From NCBI RefSeq assembly GCF_019038595.1, contig NZ_JAHOPF010000001.1:434001-498000 (forward strand): a stretch of 64,000 nt of DNA, read 5' to 3'. The notes beneath the pieces are model-generated. The model worked only from the letters and a program-made list of their open reading frames with translations, did no database searches and was not told where the DNA came from. A program made the translations under genes and the position numbers. The stretch is from Kaistella soli (lineage in GTDB: Bacteria; Bacteroidota; Bacteroidia; Flavobacteriales; Weeksellaceae). Below, piece by piece: positions 2,431-31,227 of the stretch. Each line of letters begins with the position of its first letter. Positions within the stretch are counted from its first letter, which is position 1.

Positions 2431-4758
2431 ATGGATTACTTGAAAGGATTAAATGAAGCACAGTATGAAGCCGTTACCACGCTGGAAGGACCTTTGATGG
2501 TTCTCGCAGGCGCTGGTTCCGGTAAAACACGGGTGCTTACTATGCGTATTGCGCATTTAATAACCAATCTGGTGGATCCTTTCAATATTCTGGCGCTTAC
2601 GTTTACCAACAAAGCCGCCAAGGAAATGAAAGAACGTATCGCAAAAGTCGTTGGACAAAGTGAAGCAAGATCGCTCTGGATGGGAACCTTTCACTCGGTT
2701 TTTGCCAGGATTCTTAGAAGTGAAGCTCATCTTCTCGGTTTTCCTTCAAATTTTACCATCTACGATTCTCAGGATTCTTTGAACGTGATCCGGAAAGTAT
2801 TGAAGGAGCTTAAAATCGATGCGGATTTATACAAACCGAAAAAAGTTCAGGCGAGAATTTCAAATTACAAAAACAATCTCATCACTGTAAAAGCATATTT
2901 CGGAAATCCCGAACTCATCGAAAATGATGAACGTGCCAATATGAAACATATGGGACTGATCTATCAGAAGTATGTTGAAGCCTGTTTCCGGAACGGCGCG
3001 ATGGATTTTGATGATCTGCTTTTAAGAACCAACGAACTGCTGACGAGATTTCCGGAAGTTCTAGCAAAATATCAGGACAGATTCCGGTATATTTTGGTGG
3101 ATGAGTATCAGGATACCAACCATTCACAGTATTTAATTGTAAAAGCTCTGGCTTCAAAATTCGAAAATATCTGTGTGGTAGGAGACGACGCACAGTCCAT
3201 TTACTCTTTCCGAGGTGCGAATATTTACAATATTTTGAATTTTAAAAAAGACTATCCTGATGCGGTGACGGTTTCTTTGGAGCAGAATTACCGTTCAACG
3301 CAAAATATCGTAAATGCTGCAAATGTTGTTATTTCTAAAAATGTTCAGCAGTTCAAAAAAAATGTTTTCAGTGAAAATGAAGAAGGTGAAAAAATTAAGG
3401 TTTACCGCTCTCTCTCTGATGCTGACGAAGCGAGTTTTGTAGCTTCCAATATTTGGGAGAAGCACAATTCTGAACAGCGAAAATTCACAGATTTTGCCAT
3501 TCTGTACCGAACAAATTCCCAGACGCGTGCTTTTGAAGATGCGCTGAGAAGGAAAAATATTCCTTACAAAGTTTATGGTGGACTTTCGTTTTACCAGAGA
3601 AAAGAGGTGAAAGATCTGGTAGCTTATCTGCGTCTTTTGATCAATGAAAATGATAATGAAGCACTTACGAGAATTATAAATTATCCTGCCCGCGGAATTG
3701 GTGAAACTACCCAGAATAAACTGATTGTCTTTGCTGACAGTCAAAATGTTTCTGTTTCCACCGTTCTGGATAATTTAGGACTTTATGCTCCGCAGTTAGG
3801 TTTGAATAACGGAATTCTGACAAAACTTGCAGATTTCTGGTCGATGATTAAAGCTTTTCAGGTCATGCTGAAAACCGAAAATGCGTACACCGTTGCGATG
3901 GAAGTCGCCAAAAGAACAGGTCTCATTAAATTTCTGAAAGACGATCAAACGCCGGAAGGGATTTCCAGAGTTGAAAACGTTCAGGAATTGATGAACTCTA
4001 TGCAGGGTTTCATTGAAGAACAGCAGCAGATCGAAGACGGCGATCCTTCGCTTCCCAATTTCCTGGAAAATATCGCACTTTCCGCAGATACGCAGACCGA
4101 TAAAAAAGAAGATGGTGATCAGGTTTCACTGATGACTATTCACCTTTCAAAAGGGTTGGAATTTCCGATCGTACATTTGGTCGGTCTGGAAGAAAATTTA
4201 TTTCCGAGTTTTATGAGCTCTTCAACCCGTGAAGAACTGGAGGAAGAACGCCGTTTGTTTTATGTAGCATTGACGAGGGCTGAAAAGCAGGCCTATTTTT
4301 CCTATGCAGTTTCGAGATTTCAGTGGGGCAAGATTACAGATGCCGAACCTTCGAGGTTTTTGAGCGAAATGGATTCTGAACATATAGAATTTATCAATCC
4401 TGCTGTTGAAAGCCGTTTTATCAACCGTTCAGGTCTGAAATCGAGTATTTTTGATGATGAACCCAGCGAACCGAGATTTTTCAAAAAGAAAGAAGAAAAG
4501 AAAAGTATCCAAAGAAGCGAACCGTTACCGATTTCTCAGAATTTGAAACCTGTAGCTACCGCAAAAATTACCAATCCGAGCGGAGTTTCCTCGGAAAATA
4601 TTGAAGTGGGGGATAAGGTGCGTCACGACCGTTTTGGTGTTGGTGAAGTGCTTTTCCTGGATGGCACAGATCCACAGAATATCAAAGCAAAAGTGAAATT
4701 CCAGCATGAAGGGGAGAAGAATCTGATTCTGAAGTTTGCGAAACTCACAAAAATTTAA
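2431..4758 (+). CDS. ATP-dependent DNA helicase UvrD/PcrA (superfamily 1)
   Basis: 775 residues, about the length of PcrA/UvrD. It unwinds DNA 3' to 5' in repair and replication restart. Visible SF1A motifs: Walker A AGAGSGKT at residues 26-33, LTFTNKAAKEM (motif Ia), ILVDEYQDTN (motif II), GDDAQSIYSFRGA (III), EQNYRS (IV), MTIHLSKGLEFP (V) and YVALTRA (VI). A charged linker of ~90 residues then leads to a C-terminal domain with VGDKVRHDRFGVGEV, the tudor-like tail seen in PcrA/UvrD that contacts RNA polymerase. It is transcribed alone from its own promoter and ends at a bidirectional terminator. Confidence 0.96.
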   Translation: MDYLKGLNEAQYEAVTTLEGPLMVLAGAGSGKTRVLTMRIAHLITNLVDPFNILALTFTNKAAKEMKERIAKVVGQSEARSLWMGTFHSVFARILRSEAHLLGFPSNFTIYDSQDSLNVIRKVLKELKIDADLYKPKKVQARISNYKNNLITVKAYFGNPELIENDERANMKHMGLIYQKYVEACFRNGAMDFDDLLLRTNELLTRFPEVLAKYQDRFRYILVDEYQDTNHSQYLIVKALASKFENICVVGDDAQSIYSFRGANIYNILNFKKDYPDAVTVSLEQNYRSTQNIVNAANVVISKNVQQFKKNVFSENEEGEKIKVYRSLSDADEASFVASNIWEKHNSEQRKFTDFAILYRTNSQTRAFEDALRRKNIPYKVYGGLSFYQRKEVKDLVAYLRLLINENDNEALTRIINYPARGIGETTQNKLIVFADSQNVSVSTVLDNLGLYAPQLGLNNGILTKLADFWSMIKAFQVMLKTENAYTVAMEVAKRTGLIKFLKDDQTPEGISRVENVQELMNSMQGFIEEQQQIEDGDPSLPNFLENIALSADTQTDKKEDGDQVSLMTIHLSKGLEFPIVHLVGLEENLFPSFMSSSTREELEEERRLFYVALTRAEKQAYFSYAVSRFQWGKITDAEPSRFLSEMDSEHIEFINPAVESRFINRSGLKSSIFDDEPSEPRFFKKKEEKKSIQRSEPLPISQNLKPVATAKITNPSGVSSENIEVGDKVRHDRFGVGEVLFLDGTDPQNIKAKVKFQHEGEKNLILKFAKLTKI

Positions 4759-21417: not shown

Positions 21418-22101
21418 TTACTTCATGCCGCTCAAAGAATTCAGGATTGTTGCTGAATTCTGCTGCTCGTGGCTCTGAATAATATTGAAAAGACCGTTAA
21501 CCATTTGTTGAGAGGCAAACCTGCTGATTCCGCCAGTAATTGAACTGTTGGAGTTCTGTCCTCCAAAAATGGAACCCAAAATATTGGATCCTGCCAAAGC
21601 ACTGTTTAATGAACTTACAAGCCCGAACTCATTCAGTTTTGCATCTACCTTCGGTGCAATTGCAGCCATTAACTGTTCAGAAGTTCTTTCTTTGAGAATT
21701 TGAGTTGCAGCACCGGTTCCTCCCTGCGCGATTCTTGCCGCGTCCTCCGCAGTAAGACTGTTCACTGCATTCACCAGAATTGGCCGCGAAGTGTCTACGG
21801 TAAAAGCCGCAGCCTGCGCGATATATTCTTTTTCTTTTTGTACTAAATTGTTCAGACCCAGTTTCTGTAAAGTGCTGTTCACATCTTTTAGCTGCTGAGG
21901 AAGTGCAGCGTCAATAAGCTGATTGGCGAGAAAACTGTCTTTATTGCTGAAAATATTGAGTCCTTTTGTAATTCCTCCCAGAAGAATCTGTTTCAAAACT
22001 GCTAAACCTACACTGGATGTGGCCAAAGCCAGGCAGGATTGTGTAGTGGTTCCTAGGGTAGCAACAGCCATTGTTGCCACTAATATTGTATTTCTTCTCA
22101 T
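21418..22101 (-). CDS. DUF4197 family exported protein
   Basis: 227 residues. The N-terminus is a signal sequence with a Cys at residue 23 (TTTQSCLAL), possibly a lipoprotein site. The pattern DAALPQQLKDVNSTLQKLGL, PILVNAVNSLTAEDAARIAQGG.GAATQILKERTSEQL and AAIAPKVDAKLNEFGL is characteristic of DUF4197, a helical domain of unknown function common in Bacteroidetes and Proteobacteria. The tail is Asn/Ser/Gly-rich. Single-gene transcript with its own terminator. No enzymatic motif seen. Confidence 0.85.
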   Translation of the reverse strand: MRRNTILVATMAVATLGTTTQSCLALATSSVGLAVLKQILLGGITKGLNIFSNKDSFLANQLIDAALPQQLKDVNSTLQKLGLNNLVQKEKEYIAQAAAFTVDTSRPILVNAVNSLTAEDAARIAQGGTGAATQILKERTSEQLMAAIAPKVDAKLNEFGLVSSLNSALAGSNILGSIFGGQNSNSSITGGISRFASQQMVNGLFNIIQSHEQQNSATILNSLSGMK

Positions 22102-22177: not shown

Positions 22178-22214
22178 TTAACATAATTTTAAATTAAAGT
22201 TAACATGATGTTAA
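22178..22214 (+). promoter_or_regulatory. Candidate operator of susCD: TTAACAT repeats
   Basis: TTAACAT occurs at 22178-22184 and again at 22200-22206, spaced 22 bases (two helical turns). The second copy is followed after one base by ATGTTAA (22208-22214), making a perfect 15-base palindrome. It lies right upstream of the -7 box of susC. A site for a dimeric activator or repressor is the natural reading; the regulator is not encoded nearby. Confidence 0.5.
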
Positions 22215-22224
22215 TTTTATTTTC

Positions 22225-22232
22225 TAACTTTG
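22225..22232 (+). promoter_or_regulatory. -7 box of susC
   Basis: TAACTTTG, full TAnnTTTG match, 58 bases before the ATG at 22291. The -33 area is occupied by the palindrome instead of a TTG, which suggests dependence on a bound regulator. Confidence 0.6.
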
Positions 22233-22290
22233 AGATAATAAAGCCGAAAAGTTAAATTATAACCCGGATTTTAAAAACAAAAACTACTAT

Positions 22291-25110
22291 ATGAAACACA
22301 TTAATTTAAAAGCACCTTGCTTGGTTGCTGCGTTATACTTCGGTATGAATGTCAGTGCGCAGGTCGTTTCACAGGACTCTTTAAAAGAACAGAAAATTGA
22401 AGAGGTGGTGATGATTGGTTATGGGAACCAAAAAAAGGAGAATGTCACCGGAAGTATTGGTTTAATTAGTGCAAAAGATTTGGCAGATAAGCCGAACCCT
22501 AATCCAATAAGTTCAATACAGGGTAAGGTTGCGGGTGTGCAAATCTTAAATTCCGGTGCGCCTGGAGGATCGCCGAGAGTGGATATACGGGGGATCAGTT
22601 CTATTTCCGGTAAAACGGTATTTATTGTAGACGGGATGATTACCAATGATATTTCGTTTCTGAATCCTCAGGATATTGAATCGATGAGTATTTTGAAAGA
22701 TCCTTCGAGTTTGGCAATTTTCGGTGCGCAGGCATCAAACGGTGCCGTCATTATTAAAACCAAATCAGGAAAAGGAAAGACTGTATTTAATTTCAACACT
22801 TATGTGGGGATAAAAACAGTAACGAATATTCCTAAAATGGTAAATTCTGATCAGTACGTTGAGCTGTATAATGAAAAGCTGAGAAACGATGGCGTGACGG
22901 ACCCAACTAAATTCTTGGACCGTTCTAAAATTGCAGCAGATACAGATTGGTTTAAAGAAGTTTTCAACCCCGGAATTATTAATTCAACTGATTTTTCTGC
23001 TGCCGGAAAACTGAAAGATTTAGGTTATTTTTTAAGTGTAGGATATTTAAATGATGGCGGAACTCTTGCTGCAGGACGTGGCGTGAATTCAGGAAATGAT
23101 TTCAGGAAATTTACAACAAGAGCGAACCTTACCTATAAAATTAACCCGAACATTACGGTAGGTAATAACTTCACATGGAGTCAAATCAATACCAATAACG
23201 CTAATAATCCATTGTTAACAGCATACGGAGCTCCACCGATTTATTATCCTATTAATCCGGCAACAGGGAATTACGATTATTTTTCTGTCGTATCGATAGC
23301 CAACCCACGCGCAACTTTGGATTTATTAAGATCTAAGAATGACGAAAACCGTATTTTAGAAAATGTTTGGGGAGAAGTTAAATTCCTGAAAGATTTTACC
23401 TTAAGAATCAGTTATGCTTTAGATCATAGAAATATTAATAAATATGACTACAACGCGATAAATAATTATAACCCTAACGGTACTCCAACGAGAGCGACTC
23501 TTGAAGATTTCGATCTTTTTTATAAAAGTTATGTTTGGGATAACACGCTTAAATGGAAAAAAACCATAAATAACCATAACTTAGAAATTCTGGGAGGTTT
23601 TTCCCGAACTGAGGACCATCATAACGGAGTTTACAGAAAATCATGGGACGTAAATTTTAACGGGAATGACAGTTCACTGGATGTGTTTTCGGGAGCAGAT
23701 TTGTTCGTTAGAGACAATATCCAATACGCCGGAAAATTAGATCCTTATAAAAACAGAATTGAATCACTTTTTGGCAGAATCAATTATGATTATGCAGGGA
23801 AATACTTATTAAATGCATCAGTGAGAAGAGATGGTGCTACAGGTTTTTCTTCCGATGACCGGTATAGAACCTTCCCCGCGGTAAGTGCAGGTTGGGTAAT
23901 ATCCAAAGAAAATTTCATGAGTCAACAGAATGTTTTTGATTTATTAAAATTGAGAGCAAGCTGGGGTAAACTTGGAAATCCGGAAGTGCCAAGAAAGTAT
24001 ACACTTACAACAACGGTTTTCAATGACGGAGCTTATTATGGCGGTGCCGGTTATAATGCGGAAACGATTACAGAAGTAATTGATCCAACGATCGGCTGGG
24101 AAACGACAGAAGGTAAAGATTTCGGAATTGAAATGGCTTTTCTGCAGAATAAATTAAAAATTGAAGCGACCTATTTTGACAAAGATTCCAAAGATATAGT
24201 GTACGCCATTAATCAGCCAGCGATTTCAGGAGCCAGCAACAACTCCAATTTTGTTACCAATGCTTACTCTTTTAATAACAAGGGTTTTGAAGGTTCTGTA
24301 AGTTTTGACAAAAACATCAGTGAAAAAGTGCGTTTTGGGTTGTATGGTAATATCACTACACTTAAAAACCAAATTACTGAGGTTTATGGAGGGTCTTTCA
24401 ATGAGCCGGGAGCCCATTTATTCGGGAATACATTAGTTAGATTGCAGCTTGGGCAGCCTGTGGGATCTTTCTATGGTTATCAAGTGGAAGGAATTTTCCA
24501 GAACCAGAACGAAGTAAATGCTGCTCCAACGCAAAACGGAAAAAAAGCGGGCGGATTCAGATTTGCTGATTTAGACGGCAATGGACTTATTGACGAAAGA
24601 GACAAAACATTCCTTGGAAGTCCAGTTCCTAAATTTACTTACGGATTTGGTTTTAATTTAAATGTTTCCGATTTCGATTTTGCGGTAGATTTCCAAGGAG
24701 TTTACGGTAATAAAATTTACAATTATAACCGCGAACAGCGTTTTAGTAACGAAAGCTGGGATCTGGATATGTATAATAACAGATGGCACGGAGAAGGAAC
24801 ATCAAATTCCTATGCGATGATCACCAACGACCAGGCTATTATTTTACCCAACAGTTTCTATGTAGAAGACGGAAGTTTCTTCAGAATCAGAAATATTCTA
24901 ATGGGATATAATTTCTCAAAAAATATTACCCAATCGATGAATATTGAAAAAATGAGGATTTATGTAAGCGCGCAGAATCCATTTACAAGTTTCAAATACC
25001 ACGGTTTTTCACCAGAAATTCTGAATACGGATAGAGTACAGATGGGAATTGATAATAATATCTATCCAATCGCAGCGATCTACACTTTTGGGATGACTTT
25101 AACTTTTTAA
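22291..25110 (+). CDS. SusC/RagA-type TonB-dependent outer-membrane transporter
   Basis: 939 residues. Signal peptide MKHINLKAPCLVAALYFGMNVSAQ, then almost at once the TonB-box/plug region (EEVVMIGYGNQKKENVTGSI) and plug motifs SIQGKVAGVQI, SPRVDIRGISS, VFIVDGM and SIEILKDPSS-like SMSILKDPSS. The 22-strand barrel fills the rest and ends in the aromatic ...YTFGMTLTF. The carboxypeptidase-like regulatory domain that most SusC proteins carry before the plug is absent. SusC imports oligosaccharides through the outer membrane with its SusD lid. Gene starts the glucan-utilization locus and precedes susD by nine bases. Confidence 0.95.
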   Translation: MKHINLKAPCLVAALYFGMNVSAQVVSQDSLKEQKIEEVVMIGYGNQKKENVTGSIGLISAKDLADKPNPNPISSIQGKVAGVQILNSGAPGGSPRVDIRGISSISGKTVFIVDGMITNDISFLNPQDIESMSILKDPSSLAIFGAQASNGAVIIKTKSGKGKTVFNFNTYVGIKTVTNIPKMVNSDQYVELYNEKLRNDGVTDPTKFLDRSKIAADTDWFKEVFNPGIINSTDFSAAGKLKDLGYFLSVGYLNDGGTLAAGRGVNSGNDFRKFTTRANLTYKINPNITVGNNFTWSQINTNNANNPLLTAYGAPPIYYPINPATGNYDYFSVVSIANPRATLDLLRSKNDENRILENVWGEVKFLKDFTLRISYALDHRNINKYDYNAINNYNPNGTPTRATLEDFDLFYKSYVWDNTLKWKKTINNHNLEILGGFSRTEDHHNGVYRKSWDVNFNGNDSSLDVFSGADLFVRDNIQYAGKLDPYKNRIESLFGRINYDYAGKYLLNASVRRDGATGFSSDDRYRTFPAVSAGWVISKENFMSQQNVFDLLKLRASWGKLGNPEVPRKYTLTTTVFNDGAYYGGAGYNAETITEVIDPTIGWETTEGKDFGIEMAFLQNKLKIEATYFDKDSKDIVYAINQPAISGASNNSNFVTNAYSFNNKGFEGSVSFDKNISEKVRFGLYGNITTLKNQITEVYGGSFNEPGAHLFGNTLVRLQLGQPVGSFYGYQVEGIFQNQNEVNAAPTQNGKKAGGFRFADLDGNGLIDERDKTFLGSPVPKFTYGFGFNLNVSDFDFAVDFQGVYGNKIYNYNREQRFSNESWDLDMYNNRWHGEGTSNSYAMITNDQAIILPNSFYVEDGSFFRIRNILMGYNFSKNITQSMNIEKMRIYVSAQNPFTSFKYHGFSPEILNTDRVQMGIDNNIYPIAAIYTFGMTLTF

Positions 25111-25119
25111 AATTGAATT

Positions 25120-26538
25120 ATGAAAAAAATAATATTAGCAGCAGCAATGCTCTCCGTAGTTCTAAGCTGTAAAGATGATTTCTTGGATATTCCTGTAGAA
25201 GGACAGACGGAAGCTACAGAATTTTTCCAGACAAAAGATGATGCGATGAAAGCTACCAGTGCAATCTATAGTTTTCTGAGAAGTTGGGACAATTCTGCAT
25301 TCCCGTACCAGTTTTTATTTGGAGTTCCTGCCGATGATGTGGTGAAGGGTTCTAATCCTGGTGATGCTTCATTTATTAATGTATATGATAATTTCACTTA
25401 TACACAAAGTGATGAAGGAGTTGCAGGGTACTGGAATGGACAGTGGCAGGCCATTGGAAGATGTAACCAGGTTGTTACCCGGGTTCCTGGTATCGATATG
25501 GATGCAAATCTTAAAACCCGTCTTGTTGCAGAAGCAAAAATGTTAAGAGCTTACTTTTACTTCAATCTTGCCCGAATTTATGGTGGTGTTCCGTTATTTG
25601 ACGGTTTGCAGGAAAATTATAATGTTCCAAGAAAATCACAGGCCGAAGTTTTTGACTTTATCATTAAAGATTTACTTGAAGTTTCGGCAGTTCTTCCTGC
25701 AACATATCCTGCTTTAGATCAGGGAAGGGTTACCAAAGGCGCAGCGCTGGGTTTGCTTGCTAAGGTGTATCTTTATAAAAAGGACTGGCAAAAAGCATAT
25801 GACACTTCCAATCAGGTAATGTCAATGGGATATGCACTGGATCCGAGTTTTAACCATGTTTTCCGTTTAGGAGGCGAGTTCGGTCCTGAGTCTGTTTTTG
25901 AAGTAGACTGCAGTTGTGTTCCCGGATTTGGAGGTTCACAGTACGCTGAAGTTCAGGGAGTGAGAAATCAGTTCGGATGGGGCTTCTTTACACCGTCTGC
26001 TGCATTGGAAAATGCCTTTGAACCAGGAGATATCAGAAAAGAATTGACAATACTGAGAGAAGGAGAAATAACTCCCGAAGGCGATTTGATTAAAAAAGGT
26101 GATCCTCTTTCTGTAGATACTTACAACCAGAAAATTTATGTGCCAATTGCCCAGAATAATAATGCATGTGGCTATGGTTCAGTTCAGAATATTAGAATTT
26201 TGAGATTTGCAGAAATTTTGCTTATTAATGCTGAAGCAGCAAATGAGTTAGGAAATACTGCCGCTGCCAAAACTTCACTTAATAAAGTAAGAAACCGTGC
26301 ACAGCTTGCCGATACAACAGCCGCAACACAAGCAGATTTACGTGCTGCAATTTGGCATGAAAGAAGAGTAGAACTTGCTATGGAAGGTGACCGTTTTGTA
26401 GATCTTGTCCGCACTGGGCAGGCCGCAACTGTATTGGCTCCTTATGGTTTTACGGCAGGGAAAAATGAGTTATTCCCAATTCCATTGAAAGAAATTAACC
26501 AAAGTAATGGAGTACTGACCCAAAACCCTGGATATTAA
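25120..26538 (+). CDS. SusD/RagB-type outer-membrane glycan-binding lipoprotein
   Basis: 472 residues. Lipoprotein signal ends SVVLSCKDDFLDIPVEGQ. The SusD tetratricopeptide-like fold is recognised by LVAEAKMLRAYFYFNLARIYGGVPLFD, RVTKGAALGLLAKVYLYKKDWQKAYD and the C-terminal RFAEILLINAEAANELGN...ALNKVRNRA-like block plus WHERRVELAMEGDRFVDLVRTG. It caps the SusC barrel and captures glycan. Immediately downstream is a terminator before the enzymes, so the transporter pair may be transcribed more than the hydrolases. Confidence 0.95.
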   Translation: MKKIILAAAMLSVVLSCKDDFLDIPVEGQTEATEFFQTKDDAMKATSAIYSFLRSWDNSAFPYQFLFGVPADDVVKGSNPGDASFINVYDNFTYTQSDEGVAGYWNGQWQAIGRCNQVVTRVPGIDMDANLKTRLVAEAKMLRAYFYFNLARIYGGVPLFDGLQENYNVPRKSQAEVFDFIIKDLLEVSAVLPATYPALDQGRVTKGAALGLLAKVYLYKKDWQKAYDTSNQVMSMGYALDPSFNHVFRLGGEFGPESVFEVDCSCVPGFGGSQYAEVQGVRNQFGWGFFTPSAALENAFEPGDIRKELTILREGEITPEGDLIKKGDPLSVDTYNQKIYVPIAQNNNACGYGSVQNIRILRFAEILLINAEAANELGNTAAAKTSLNKVRNRAQLADTTAATQADLRAAIWHERRVELAMEGDRFVDLVRTGQAATVLAPYGFTAGKNELFPIPLKEINQSNGVLTQNPGY

Positions 26539-26555
26539 TTGATGTCATAAAAAAG

Positions 26556-26585
26556 GCTGCCACATTTTTGATGTGGTGGCTTTTT
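26556..26585 (+). terminator. Terminator between susD and glucanase gene
   Basis: A 10-bp stem (26556-26565 with 26571-26580, two G-U pairs) with a 5-base loop, followed by TTTTT. It would limit read-through from susCD into the enzyme genes. Confidence 0.85.
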
Positions 26586-26635
26586 CATTTATTCAGGCTC
26601 ATTAAAAAGATTGAAAAAATCATAAATCAAAAAAA

Positions 26636-28012
26636 ATGAAAAAACTCATTGCTGCTGCAATACTTACCTGTTCTTTTTCCCTCTCCTGCACTAATCTGCA
26701 GAAAGCCACGGCAGAGTCGGTACTAAAACCTACTCCAGCCGATATACAGTTAATGAACAAAGTGCAGCACGATGCCCTGAAATATTTCTGGGATTTTGCT
26801 GAACCTAATTCAATGCTGGGCAGGGAACGGTATCATGAAGACGATATCTACCCGCAGAATGATAAAAATGTAATCACAACAGGTGGTTCAGGATTTGGCT
26901 TAATGACAATTATTGTAGGCGTGGAGCGTAATTTTATTCCAAGAAAAGAGGCGGTAAAACGTTTAACAGTAATGGCAGATTTCCTCGCAAATGCCGACCG
27001 TCACCACGGCGCATGGTCACACTGGATTGATGGCGAAACCGGGAAAACCGTTCCTTTTGGTAAGAAAGACAACGGCGGAGATTTGGTGGAAACCGCATTT
27101 TTAGTCCAGGGAATGATTGCCGTACGCGAATATTTCAAAAACGGGGACGAAGAAGAAAAGCTCCTTGCCAAAAAAATGGACGACCTCTGGAAAGGCGTAG
27201 AATGGAACTGGTACACCAAAGGCGGAGAAAAAGTCCTTTATTGGCACTGGTCACCAACTTACGGCTGGGAGATGAATTTTCCCCTTGAAGGATATAACGA
27301 ATGTCTTGTAACCTACATTTTGGCGGCTTCCTCACCAACCCATCCTATCGATGCGGAAACCTACTACAAAGGCTGGACAAGAAACGGAACCTACACCACG
27401 GATAAAACAAAATACGGTCTTCCGCTTTATCTCAAACACAATGGCGCCGAAGAATATGGCGGTCCGCTGTTCTGGTCTCAGTATTCCTATCTCGGATTGG
27501 ATCCTACAGGTTTGTCAGATAAAACAGTTAAAAATTATTTTGATGTCAATAGAAACCATGTGCTTATTGACTATAAATACAGCGAAGAAAATCCAAAAAA
27601 CTGGAAAGGTTACGGCAAAAATTACTGGGGTCACACCGCAGGTTATACCAGAAATGAGGACGGGTCAACAGGTTACACAGCACATTCGCCCGCGAACGAC
27701 AATGGTGTGATCAATCCGACGGCGGCATTAAGCAGCTTTCCGTATACGCCAAAAGAATCGATGGATTTTCTTAGATTTATCTACACCGAAAAACCCGAGT
27801 TTATCGGTTCCGCAGGTCCTTACGATGCAACTTCCATACATTACGGCAACTGGTTTACGCCAAGATATCTGGCCATCGATCAGGGAACGATTTCGCCGAT
27901 GATAGAAAATTACCGCACCGGACTGATCTGGAAATTGTTCATGAATGCACCCGAAATCCGGGAAGGTTTGAAAAATTTAAGTTTTAAATCCGAAAAGTAT
28001 AACATTAAATAA
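26636..28012 (+). CDS. Endo-beta-1,2-glucanase-like lipoprotein (GH144, glucoamylase-like PF10091)
   Basis: 458 residues. Lipoprotein signal ends SFSLSCTN. The remainder is an (alpha/alpha)6 barrel of the glucoamylase-like PF10091 family: DALKYFWDFAEPNSMLGRER, TTGGSGFGLMTIIVGVERNF, DNGGDLVETAFLVQGMIAVREYF, PLEGYNECLVTYILAASSP and HSPANDNGVINPTAALSSFPYTPKES. The acidic residues in GGDLVE and PLEGYNE are the likely active-site ones. The Chitinophaga pinensis member of this family is an endo-beta-1,2-glucanase that founded GH144. Specificity is inferred from that homology and from the neighbouring GH3 and SusCD genes. Confidence 0.85.
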   Translation: MKKLIAAAILTCSFSLSCTNLQKATAESVLKPTPADIQLMNKVQHDALKYFWDFAEPNSMLGRERYHEDDIYPQNDKNVITTGGSGFGLMTIIVGVERNFIPRKEAVKRLTVMADFLANADRHHGAWSHWIDGETGKTVPFGKKDNGGDLVETAFLVQGMIAVREYFKNGDEEEKLLAKKMDDLWKGVEWNWYTKGGEKVLYWHWSPTYGWEMNFPLEGYNECLVTYILAASSPTHPIDAETYYKGWTRNGTYTTDKTKYGLPLYLKHNGAEEYGGPLFWSQYSYLGLDPTGLSDKTVKNYFDVNRNHVLIDYKYSEENPKNWKGYGKNYWGHTAGYTRNEDGSTGYTAHSPANDNGVINPTAALSSFPYTPKESMDFLRFIYTEKPEFIGSAGPYDATSIHYGNWFTPRYLAIDQGTISPMIENYRTGLIWKLFMNAPEIREGLKNLSFKSEKYNIK

Positions 28013-28021
28013 ATGTTTTTT

Positions 28022-28106
28022 TTGGAGCTTTTCCCCGCTTTCCGCTATATCTTTTGTTCCGCTGCGCTGCACAAAAGGATGCCGCTTCAATCGGGGCTAG
28101 GAGCAA
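28022..28106. repeat. Intergenic hairpin element, copy 1
   Basis: An imperfect stem-loop. CTTTTGT (28051-28057) pairs with ACAAAAG (28071-28077), and the outer CCCCG (28033-28037) with CGGGG (28092-28096). Its right arm closely resembles the right arm of the element at 39251-39340 (AAAAG, CCG, TTCAA, CGG, GCAATTT in the same order). No reading frame. Looks like a member of a dispersed chromosomal repeat family; it separates two genes of the glucan locus. Confidence 0.65.
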
Positions 28107-28124
28107 TTTAATAACAATAAAAAT

Positions 28125-28829
28125 ATGAACTTTAAATTAAAATACCTGTCAACAGTTTTTCTTGGATTGGCTTTCATGGTAAATGCTCAGGAAATCAAAG
28201 CTGAATTCAATAAGGAAATTAAAAAAGTCCAGAAGATTTCCTATGTTTTAGATTATCCGCAGAACGCAAAAGGAAAAGTTCCCTTGATTGTTTTTCTGCA
28301 CGGCTCGGGCGAAAGAGGAACCGATTTGGAAATGGTAAAAGCACACAGCCCGTTCACTTACAAGAATTTAATAAAGGAACCGGTGGCTATTTTGGCACCG
28401 CAATGTCCGGAAAATGTTTGGTGGGATACTGAAGCGGTGTATTATTTAATTAAAGATATTCAGCAGAAATATAAGATCGACGAATCCAGGATTGTTCTTA
28501 CCGGGCTGTCCATGGGAGGTTGGGGAACACTGAAGCTGGCCATGGAGCATCCCGAAATGTTTTCCGCGGTCGCTCCGGTCTGCGCACCGGTAGACCGGCT
28601 GATGAAAGTGAGGGCCAAACAGTATAAAAATCTGCCTATGAAAATTTTTCACGGGGGAAACGATGATGTTGTATCTCCCGCAAATTCAATCGAAATTTAT
28701 CAGGAAATAAAGAAATACAATAAAAATGTTGAATTGACAATATTTCCGGATGATAACCACAACTCATGGGATTCCACCTATTCAGATCCGAAACTGTATG
28801 AATGGATGCTCTCTCAAAGAAAAAATTAA
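28125..28829 (+). CDS. Secreted alpha/beta hydrolase, esterase-like
   Basis: 234 residues. Signal peptide to about ...FMVNAQ. Alpha/beta hydrolase fold with oxyanion HGSGERGTDLEM near residue 58, nucleophile elbow GLSMGGWG (Ser), acid in FHGGNDDVVSP (Asp) and His in PDDNHNSW. The nearest types are dienelactone-hydrolase and PHB-depolymerase-like or feruloyl-esterase-like enzymes. Placed between the glucanase and the GH3 gene (gap 18 bases to GH3), it may remove an acyl decoration such as succinyl or acetyl from the glucan; that role is inference. Confidence 0.85.
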   Translation: MNFKLKYLSTVFLGLAFMVNAQEIKAEFNKEIKKVQKISYVLDYPQNAKGKVPLIVFLHGSGERGTDLEMVKAHSPFTYKNLIKEPVAILAPQCPENVWWDTEAVYYLIKDIQQKYKIDESRIVLTGLSMGGWGTLKLAMEHPEMFSAVAPVCAPVDRLMKVRAKQYKNLPMKIFHGGNDDVVSPANSIEIYQEIKKYNKNVELTIFPDDNHNSWDSTYSDPKLYEWMLSQRKN

Positions 28830-28847
28830 AATAAAAAGTAAAAGAAT

Positions 28848-31175
28848 ATGAAGAACCTGATTTTAATTGCAGCACTGGCGCTGTCACCATGTTTTCTTTC
28901 ACAGGAAATGGTAACAAAACCTGTTCAGTCTTACCAAACCGAACAGTACAAAGCGAAAAAGAAAATCTTTGTTGATGCGCTTTTATCTAAAATGACCGTC
29001 GACGAAAAAATCGGACAGCTTAATTTGCCGAGCGCCGGAGATTTTACGACGGGGCAGGCCCAAAATTCTGACATCGGTAAAAAAATTGAAGACGGCTTGG
29101 TTGGCGGACTTTTTAATATCAAAGGAGCCGAAAAGATCAGAGCCGTTCAGAAAGTTGCCGTTGAAAAAAGCCGTCTGAAAATTCCGTTGATCTTCGGGAT
29201 GGATGTCATTCACGGTTACGAAACCAATTTCCCGATTCCTTTAGGTTTGGCCGCTTCCTGGGATATGAATTTGATTCAGCAGTCGGCACGGGTTGCTGCT
29301 AAAGAAGCCACTTCAGACGGAATTTCGTGGACTTTCTCTCCGATGACTGATATTTCCCGTGAACCAAGATGGGGAAGAGTTTCTGAGGGTTCCGGAGAAG
29401 ATCCATATCTCGGAAGCGAAATCGCCAAACATATGGTGTATGGCTATCAGGGAAAAGATCTTTCGCTGAGTAATACCATTATGGCTTGTGTAAAACATTT
29501 TGCGCTTTACGGAGCCGGAGAGGCAGGCCGTGATTACAATACCGTGGACATGAGCCATGTAAGAATGTTTAATGAATATTTTCCGCCTTATAAAGCCGCT
29601 GTAGATGCAGGGGTAGGATCGGTAATGGCTTCTTTCAACGAAGTGGACGGAATTCCGGCAACAGGAAACAGATGGCTTCAGACCGATGTTCTGAGAAAGA
29701 TGTGGGGCTTTGACGGTTTTGTTGTGACTGATTATACCGGAATCAATGAAATGATTGACCACGGAATGGGGGATTTACAGCAGGTTTCTGCCTTAGCTTT
29801 GAAAGCCGGAATTGATATGGACATGGTAGGTGAAGGTTTTTTGAAAACTTTAAAACAGTCTTTGCAGGAAGGAAAAGTTACCCAAGCTGAGATCGATTTG
29901 GCGGCGAAAAGAATTCTCGAAGCGAAATACGATTTAGGTCTTTTTGATGATCCTTACCGTTATGGCGATGCGAAATTGGCTAAGAAAGAAGTGTACAGCA
30001 TGGAAAACAGAAATATTGCAAGAAATGCCGCTGCACAGTCAATGGTTTTAATGAAAAATGAAAATGCTGTTCTTCCGCTAAAAAAATCAGGAACCGTTGC
30101 GGTAATCGGACCGTTGGTGAATAACTCACTGAACATGGCCGGAACCTGGAGCGTTGCCGCAAAACACGCCGATGCGGTTTCCTTAATGAAAGGTCTGCAG
30201 GATAATTTTGGGAAAGAAGTGAAATTTATTTCTGCAAAAGGCGCCAATATAGATTACAGCGAAAAACTTGAAAATATTTACGCAGCCCACGGAAAGTTGA
30301 CCGACCGTGATAACCGTCCGAAAGAAGTCCTTTTAAAAGAAGCCGTTGATGTCGCCAACAAAGCGGATGTTATCGTTCTGGCAATTGGCGAATCCGCTGA
30401 AATGAGCGGTGAATCATCTTCGAGAGCAGAAATTGATATTCCTCAGTCTCAGATTGATCTTTTAAAAGAGCTTAAAAAAACAGGCAAACCAATCGCAGTA
30501 GTGCTTTTCACCGGAAGACCTTTGGCTTTGACCAATATGAAAGATATTCCTGATGCTATTCTTAATGTTTGGTTTTCAGGAACTGAAGCAGGAAACGCAA
30601 TTTCTGATGTCCTTTTCGGGAAAGTAAATCCGTCAGGAAAGCTGCCAATTACGTTCCCAAGAAGTTTAGGGCAGATTCCTATTTATTATAACCATAAAAA
30701 TACGGGGCGACCTTTAAGCCAGGAAAAGACTGATAAATGCGAGTACGAGAGATTCCGTTCCAATTATATGGACGAATGCAACACACCGCTTTATCCGTTT
30801 GGATATGGCTTAAGTTATACGAAGTTTAATTATTCCCCGATGTCGGTTTCAGATTCCAGTCCGAAGGGAAATCAGACCATTCAGGCTTCGGTAACGGTTA
30901 CCAATTCCGGAAATTACGATGGAGCAGAAGTGGTGCAGCTTTACATCCGCGATATGGTAGGAAGTATCACGCGTCCTGTGAAAGAACTCAAAGGTTTCCA
31001 GAAGGTTTTTCTTAAGAAAGGGGAAAGCAAAAAAGTCACTTTCAATATCTCACCAGAAGATCTGAAATTTTACAATAATGCGCTGAAATTCGACTGGGAA
31101 GCCGGCGAATTTGACGTCATGATCGGAACCAGTTCTAATGATGTGCAGCACACTAAAATCAACTGGAGTAAATAA
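28848..31175 (+). CDS. GH3 family beta-glucosidase (BglX-like)
   Basis: 775 residues, close to E. coli BglX (765). Signal peptide of about 19 residues. GH3 N-terminal TIM-barrel (about residues 40-370) with KMTVDEKIGQL, IPLIFGMDVIHGYETNFPIPL, SPMTDISREPRWGR and the nucleophile Asp in GFVVTDYTGINEM. The C-terminal sandwich domain (about 400-640) has VIVLAIGESAEMSGESSSRAEI, and a fibronectin-III-like domain with GAEVVQLYIRD ends the chain. It hydrolyses beta-linked glucosides from the non-reducing end in the periplasm. With GH144 it would take sophoro-oligosaccharides to glucose; a Bacteroides GH3 with that activity is known. Confidence 0.93.
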   Translation: MKNLILIAALALSPCFLSQEMVTKPVQSYQTEQYKAKKKIFVDALLSKMTVDEKIGQLNLPSAGDFTTGQAQNSDIGKKIEDGLVGGLFNIKGAEKIRAVQKVAVEKSRLKIPLIFGMDVIHGYETNFPIPLGLAASWDMNLIQQSARVAAKEATSDGISWTFSPMTDISREPRWGRVSEGSGEDPYLGSEIAKHMVYGYQGKDLSLSNTIMACVKHFALYGAGEAGRDYNTVDMSHVRMFNEYFPPYKAAVDAGVGSVMASFNEVDGIPATGNRWLQTDVLRKMWGFDGFVVTDYTGINEMIDHGMGDLQQVSALALKAGIDMDMVGEGFLKTLKQSLQEGKVTQAEIDLAAKRILEAKYDLGLFDDPYRYGDAKLAKKEVYSMENRNIARNAAAQSMVLMKNENAVLPLKKSGTVAVIGPLVNNSLNMAGTWSVAAKHADAVSLMKGLQDNFGKEVKFISAKGANIDYSEKLENIYAAHGKLTDRDNRPKEVLLKEAVDVANKADVIVLAIGESAEMSGESSSRAEIDIPQSQIDLLKELKKTGKPIAVVLFTGRPLALTNMKDIPDAILNVWFSGTEAGNAISDVLFGKVNPSGKLPITFPRSLGQIPIYYNHKNTGRPLSQEKTDKCEYERFRSNYMDECNTPLYPFGYGLSYTKFNYSPMSVSDSSPKGNQTIQASVTVTNSGNYDGAEVVQLYIRDMVGSITRPVKELKGFQKVFLKKGESKKVTFNISPEDLKFYNNALKFDWEAGEFDVMIGTSSNDVQHTKINWSK

Positions 31176-31194
31176 CCTAAATTAACTGTAAAAA

Positions 31195-31227
31195 ACCGCT
31201 TTCATTTTTGTGAAAGCGGTTTTTTTT
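31195..31227 (+). terminator. Terminator of glucan-utilization locus
   Basis: ACCGCTTTCA (31195-31204) pairs perfectly with TGAAAGCGGT (31211-31220), then seven T. Confidence 0.92.

Follow-up and report, generated by a model that had tools for sequence, protein, structure and literature searches.

By what route would a bacterium take up a beta-1,2-glucan, and is its transporter inherited together with the enzymes that degrade the glucan? To predict the substrate of a PUL, one usually looks at all its genes and assumes that SusC and SusD are co-inherited with the enzymes. Both questions are raised by a five-gene locus of Kaistella soli that lies in a stretch of 64,000 nucleotides, called the window here. 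In our reading the locus quite probably serves the use of beta-1,2-glucan, and its uptake module is a cassette that can be exchanged.

Gene content and predicted activities of the operon

The operon is made up of five intact open reading frames, all on the + strand and closely spaced, in a unit at 22291-31175 (Table 1); the SusC and SusD genes are adjacent and the glycan enzymes co-directional, as in Sus-type PULs. It is followed by a strong intrinsic terminator (stem 31196-31204 / 31211-31219; T-run 31220-31227), and position 31227, given by the first-pass annotation as the end of the locus, is the last base of this terminator. That annotation had also described SusC, SusD, a GH144/PF10091 protein, a hydrolase and a GH3 enzyme in a row on one strand, and domain searches confirm it. 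Its further statements, that the enzymes carry signal or lipoprotein peptides and that no sensor or anti-sigma gene lies beside them, hold as well: the GH144 protein and SusD have lipoboxes, GH3 and the hydrolase have classical signal peptides, and the neighbours are a divergent DUF4197 gene on the left (21418-22101, - strand) and an unrelated FMN-binding glutamate-synthase-like gene on the right, the true start of which is likely at about 31276, as in its orthologues. The same two neighbours of the operon are present in Kaistella montana, one of the closest named relatives of the window together with K. yonginensis and Chryseobacterium species. Because the five-gene cluster is kept in dozens of genomes, it is not a product of chance. 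In the strain's own genome, the PF10091 gene is the sole one of its kind, and there are 7 SusD-family and 4 GH3 genes, this locus included. The window holds a second 775-aa reading frame, the UvrD-like helicase at 2431-4758; a relationship with the GH3 enzyme was rejected, the equal length being a coincidence.

Table 1. Features of the Kaistella soli locus, with positions in the window
Feature	Position	Strand	Basis
SusC-type TonB-dependent transporter, front-end type S	22291-25110	+	TIGR04056, 668 bits; type assigned against 72 loci
Left boundary of the exchangeable module, IEEVVMIGYG codons in susC	22396-22425	+	DNA similarity ends or starts here; N-terminal identity contrast
SusD-type surface glycan-binding lipoprotein, CKDD export signal	25120-26538	+	PF07980, 115 bits; PF14322
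GH144 endo-beta-1,2-glucanase (predicted), A kind, lipoprotein CTNLQK	26636-28012	+	PF10091, 249 bits; CpSGL match
Right boundary zone, 5′ end of the GH144 gene	26636-26783	+	similarity to other-type Kaistella loci resumes at 26739-26783
Secreted alpha/beta hydrolase, probable carbohydrate de-acylating esterase	28125-28829	+	PF00326/PF02230; S129, D180 or D181, H212
GH3 beta-glucosidase (predicted), secreted	28848-31175	+	PF00933, PF01915, Fn3-like; D295, E522, R621
Intrinsic terminator, operon end	31194-31227	+	CCGCTTTCA-loop-TGAAAGCGG then T8, read from sequence

GH144 was told apart from the other families of the SGL clan by profile ranking. In a search with a profile of 12 homologues, the structures of GH144 scored 1e-47 to 1e-193 and that of the GH189 domain 8WY1 just 1e-7, and the best solved-structure match of the PF10091 protein was CpSGL (5GZH/5GZK), over the full length (E 6.7e-158 for 5GZH), which groups the 26636-28012 protein with GH144 and not away from it. 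The six catalytic and clan residues named for CpSGL of Chitinophaga pinensis, D135, D139, E142, E211, F268 and Y330 (PMC12102758), are all kept as D145, D149, E152, E222, F279 and Y347, in a numbering that was derived from alignment with the CpSGL structure and with motif positions checked across the family. Judged by its sequence, the protein belongs to GH144, and hydrolysis of beta-1,2-glucan is its predicted activity.

The nearest solved relatives of the GH3 enzyme are JMB19063 (3U48), then 5TF0 and the Bacteroides thetaiotaomicron enzyme 5XXL (BtBGL). A characterised enzyme, CsBGL of Chryseobacterium scophthalmum, is a 775-aa GH3 protein with an 18-aa signal, the nucleophile D277, the acid/base E504 and the ligand residues N72, D101 and M308; both sophorose (81% relative activity) and laminaribiose (80%) are cleaved by it, whereas cellobiose and gentiobiose are scarcely attacked, and its activity is cell-associated (PMC8546341). 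The window enzyme also has 775 aa and an 18-aa signal, and its D295, E522, N90, D119 and M326 sit at the CsBGL positions exactly +18, so that every key residue reported for this sophorose-cleaving enzyme is present; the two are likened by these reported residues. Furthermore, R621 aligns with Arg587 of JMB19063, the counterpart of Lin1840 Arg572, which favours beta-1,2 and beta-1,3 over beta-1,4 bonds (PMC4757417); a short insertion relative to the solved enzymes follows just after R621. With the nucleophile D295, the acid/base E522 and R621 at subsite +1, the enzyme has the residues of the sophorose/laminaribiose group (Lin1840, BtBGL, CsBGL), and it is predicted to release glucose from sophoro-oligosaccharides.

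While the enzyme families and active-site residues can be taken as established, the substrate is a prediction to which two other answers have been weighed. The target may be another beta-1,2-linked compound (plant sophorosides, steviol glycosides or sophorolipids) and not bacterial beta-1,2-glucan; indeed, the Chryseobacterium host of CsBGL was isolated on stevioside, and CsBGL removes the beta-1,2-linked glucose of this compound (PMC8546341). However, an endo-acting GH144 is not needed for disaccharide units, and the pairing of GH144 and GH3 is the one known for beta-1,2-glucan, so this answer is improbable. A beta-1,3-glucan (laminarin), with a GH144 enzyme drifted in specificity, is more improbable still: GH3 enzymes of the sophorose/laminaribiose class act on these two disaccharides to a similar extent, but every GH144 key residue is kept and no endo-beta-1,3-glucanase is found in the locus. 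Bacterial beta-1,2-glucan is thus the favoured answer, and a GH144-GH3 PUL with SusCD is already a known and common type (PMC6499787). In the GH144 PUL of B. thetaiotaomicron (BtBGL, 5XXL; survey PMC6499787), SusC, SusD, GH144 and GH3 are likewise clustered, with the same families and the same expected substrate; the window locus differs from PULs of that type in having a secreted esterase, no adjacent regulator, a single periplasm-type GH144 and an exchangeable front end.

The secreted hydrolase, glucan decorations and regulation

The alpha/beta hydrolase has a Ser-Asp-His set (S129, D180/D181 and H212, invariant in 14 orthologues), an alpha/beta fold and a secretion signal, as expected of a carbohydrate esterase. 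Its model is confident (pLDDT 88.8), and the closest fold is that of the thermostable esterase 3DOH (E 3e-18); the matches to the model were generic esterases, feruloyl esterases and PETase-like folds, and as to a defined CE family of CAZy or a known acyl substrate, sequence and fold searches likewise gave only generic esterase matches. Therefore, no substrate can be named from these matches. A homologue occurs in 66 of the 73 loci of the family set, although the versions of genus g24 are only about 31% alike, and in 64 of the 74 named GH144 loci with full context, 24 of the 30 Flavobacterium loci included; the two sets overlap. Since it is so frequent and yet missing from others, such as L033 and L035, the hydrolase is a common, dispensable accessory. 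The first-pass annotation had suggested that it may remove a succinyl or other acyl group and so be a new element of the pathway, and the novelty part of its interpretation falls; the proposed use of beta-1,2-glucan, well supported by the GH144 membership, the six conserved residues and the GH3 residues shared with CsBGL, and the lack of a sensor both stand.

A role for the hydrolase may lie in the decorations of the glucan. In anionic cyclic beta-1,2-glucan of Sinorhizobium, C6 is substituted with succinyl or glycerophosphoryl groups (PMC7569799). In 14 of the 30 Flavobacterium GH144 loci (e.g. L186:12976-13761), a secreted or lipoprotein glycerophosphodiester phosphodiesterase is encoded just 3′ of GH3, as would be expected if glycerophosphoryl groups are taken off the rhizobial cyclic glucan. 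The esterase and the phosphodiesterase thus mirror the two substituents, which gives circumstantial support to a decorated cyclic glucan as substrate and to a de-acylating role. The hydrolase is probably a carbohydrate de-acylating esterase, and we infer an acyl group as its target. Other companions of GH144 are found in some loci: a sulfatase in Salegentibacter (L201:12458-14104), in line with the marine variant of PMC6499787, GH43-type enzymes with F5/F8 domains in L195, L186 and L214, and a GH97 enzyme in L199. The GH43 and GH97 companions suggest that a heteroglycan or a decorated glucan is targeted in those Flavobacteriia and relatives.

Absence of an adjacent regulator is typical of the GH144 loci of Kaistella, Chryseobacterium and Epilithonimonas, where a regulator-like protein is almost never present. 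In 28 of 30 Flavobacterium GH144 loci, a reading frame of 880-950 aa (about 920 aa) lies near SusC on the same strand (e.g. L186:414-3179); one such protein that was scanned gave a weak LuxR-type HTH match, and a propeller repeat is present in regulator-like proteins of this sort from other genera. A search of the strain's own genome with one Flavobacterium protein as query gave no match, an empty answer that weighs little.

Front-end types and the predicted route of uptake

A GH144 match was found in half of the 150 family genomes sampled, and the front ends of 72 loci were compared with that of the window (73 in all). The genomic slot is mostly constant within a genus, that of Kaistella being between the DUF4197 and glutamate-synthase-like genes. 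The back end consists of GH144-A and GH3, mostly together with the esterase; a GH3 gene instead precedes the front end in the four loci of genus g11, probably Cloacibacterium. The front ends fall into at least six unrelated SusC/SusD kinds. Type S, found in 31 loci, has neither a Laminin_G_3 lectin (0/31) nor a second GH144, GH144-B (0/31). The others are L1 (9 loci, and 5 more that have no lectin and no GH144-B), L2 (10 loci, and 2 more without GH144-B), L3 (8 loci), X (3 loci) and Y (5 loci). Lectin and GH144-B are linked, 27 of the 29 lectin-bearing loci having GH144-B. In one locus, a gene inserted between SusD and GH144 (L050:5492-7072) encodes a C1-type peptidase that is secreted and carries a type IX sorting tail, and many genomes of genus g9 (e.g. 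G143:C4, G008:C1) have a further, separate GH144 with a frame of about 720 aa, a size like that of the exo-enzyme BDI_3064.

In surface lipoproteins of Bacteroidota the lipidated cysteine is soon followed by acidic residues (PMC5080379), a rule that derives from Capnocytophaga, Bacteroides and Flavobacterium and is carried over to Kaistella here. Within the family, positions +2 to +6 include acidic residues in 72/72 SusD proteins, 29/29 lectins and 28/30 GH144-B but in 3/63 GH144-A. SusD of the window, in which KDD follows the lipobox, is predicted to be exported to the surface, and its GH144, of the A kind, has no surface-export signal. From these signals, as read from the sequence, and from the classical signal peptides, capture and import are therefore placed at the surface, and all enzymes of the type-S version are predicted to be periplasmic.

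As far as export signals can tell, the glucan thus probably enters this strain uncut and is cut only once in the periplasm. Glucan, probably in small or cyclic forms, would be captured by SusD and pass inward uncut via SusC; lipid-anchored GH144-A would open or cut it in the periplasm into sophoro-oligosaccharides, the secreted esterase would take off acyl substituents, and GH3 would free glucose from the oligosaccharide ends. An experimental precedent that supports uncut import is the fructan PUL of B. thetaiotaomicron, in which the periplasmic enzymes stay and the SusCD pair varies, a different pair allowing periplasmic exo-enzymes to use inulin without surface digestion (PMC5967196). That case concerns a different polymer, in two strains of a single species, whereas the GH144 loci show six front-end kinds across genera, with crossovers mapped. 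The linked presence or absence of surface endoglucanase and lectin provides a natural set of strains in which uncut import and surface digestion can be compared for one substrate.

Exchange of the uptake module

Front-end type was traced on a tree of concatenated GH144-A and GH3 (68 tips), which are genes of the PUL themselves and could recombine. It changes at least 24 times, against 27.1 (sd 1.0) changes when types are shuffled within genera and 35.4 when shuffled among all loci, and genus itself requires 9 changes for 10 genera. Thus, among loci of one genus, the ancestry of the back end has almost no bearing on front-end type; among same-genus pairs with GH3 identity of at least 97%, just 68% share the type. 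As the transporter is replaced independently of the enzymes in close relatives, transporter phylogeny alone cannot give the substrate or the ancestry of a locus.

The crossovers can be mapped. In four near pairs (L069/L070, L070/L072, L037/L038 and L061/L059), flanks and back end have 88-94% DNA identity and the front end is unalignable. Between the window and other-type Kaistella loci, DNA similarity stops at 22424-22452 and, short patches excepted, is back at 26739-26783, while similarity to the type-S front ends of genus g24 begins exactly at 22396, the first base of the codons for IEEVVxIGYG, a conserved motif at the start of SusC plugs. The part of susC upstream of it (22291-22395), which encodes the signal peptide, is locus-specific. 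In pairs of the same genus and different type (n=234), the N-terminal 43 residues of SusC are 85% identical and the next 330 are 35% identical; in pairs of different genus and same type (n=424), the values are 59% and 74%. SusC is a chimaera, because its N-terminus follows the genus and the downstream part follows the type. Gene exchange is established by such comparisons, and some front ends have crossed genera: L039 (g21) and L051 (g9) are 90/90% identical in SusC/SusD but only 74/75% in GH144-A/GH3, and SusC of the window is 72% identical to that of genus g24 versus 65% to that of its congener L032, although window and L032 share 90% identity in GH3. Exchange between bacteria has repeatedly replaced the SusC barrel together with SusD and, where there is one, the lectin, by one crossover at IEEVVxIGYG of susC and another near the start of the GH144 gene; the periplasmic enzymes and the SusC signal peptide, which is specific to the locus, were retained through the swaps.

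Could the front ends be ancient tandem copies, all but one of which were lost in each lineage, with no exchange between bacteria? Parsimony counts do not distinguish gain from loss, and multi-SusCD clusters occur elsewhere in these genomes. Nevertheless, SusC N-termini track genus and not type, which ancestral duplication with loss fails to explain; moreover, front-end identity across genera exceeds back-end identity, and two full front-end types are found together in 0/73 loci, so we regard this origin as unlikely.

Some Bacteroides susC genes undergo phase variation by recombination in the 5′ part of susC. Switching of this sort within one genome, in which silent cassettes would recombine site-specifically or by homology, is hardly credible here even though the crossover likewise lies in the 5′ part of susC, since the N-terminal susC DNA is single-copy in the strain's own genome apart from one 62-base partial match over the motif, no other SusC there exceeds 32% identity to that of 22291-25110, no recombinase gene adjoins the locus, and neither silent cassettes nor repeated susC 5′ ends were found in this draft assembly of 20 contigs. 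Exchange between bacteria thus remains the preferred origin of the front ends. What is new here is an interchangeable uptake module with mapped crossovers, and a type S without lectin and second GH144; a limited literature search found no prior description of such an exchangeable front end in GH144 loci.

As a control, the comparison was extended to further SusCD loci in the same near relatives. Four stay 80-99% identical, but others are swapped too: SusC of the Kaistella P2 locus is 43% identical versus 94-97% for the neighbouring gene, one P3-5 pair is 50% identical, and a Chryseobacterium double locus is 34-49% identical in some comparisons. Swapping as a peculiarity of the beta-1,2-glucan locus was accordingly rejected. 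Front-end exchange is a more general behaviour of the SusCD genes of these bacteria and need not reflect the form of the glucan, which weakens explanations by glucan form only; selection directed at the receptor, by phages or toxins, is a serious possibility as its driver. Exchange of this kind also bears on the diversity of outer-membrane receptors in Bacteroidota.

A wider proposal, less likely than not to be right, is that the gates of PULs in environmental Bacteroidota are drawn from a pool of SusC-barrel/SusD/lectin cassettes shared across genera and spliced onto the locus-specific signal peptide at the TonB-box-like IEEVVxIGYG, with diversity held by negative frequency-dependent selection through phages and toxins that use SusC. 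If so, the enzymes of a PUL would show the food and its gate the attacker. Precedents for front-end exchange are the fructan PUL of B. thetaiotaomicron and the rag locus of Porphyromonas gingivalis, whose SusCD-type pair RagA/RagB has four alleles independent of strain phylogeny (PMC5266723); unlike the GH144 loci, the rag locus concerns a single species and peptide uptake and has no linked back-end enzymes.

Among the other SusCD loci of near relatives, replaced transporter pairs between conserved flanks are seen at L112-L119 and L123-L125. The tandem SusC genes of L116-L119 and L123-L125 have N-termini that are alike (MNVKLRVL).
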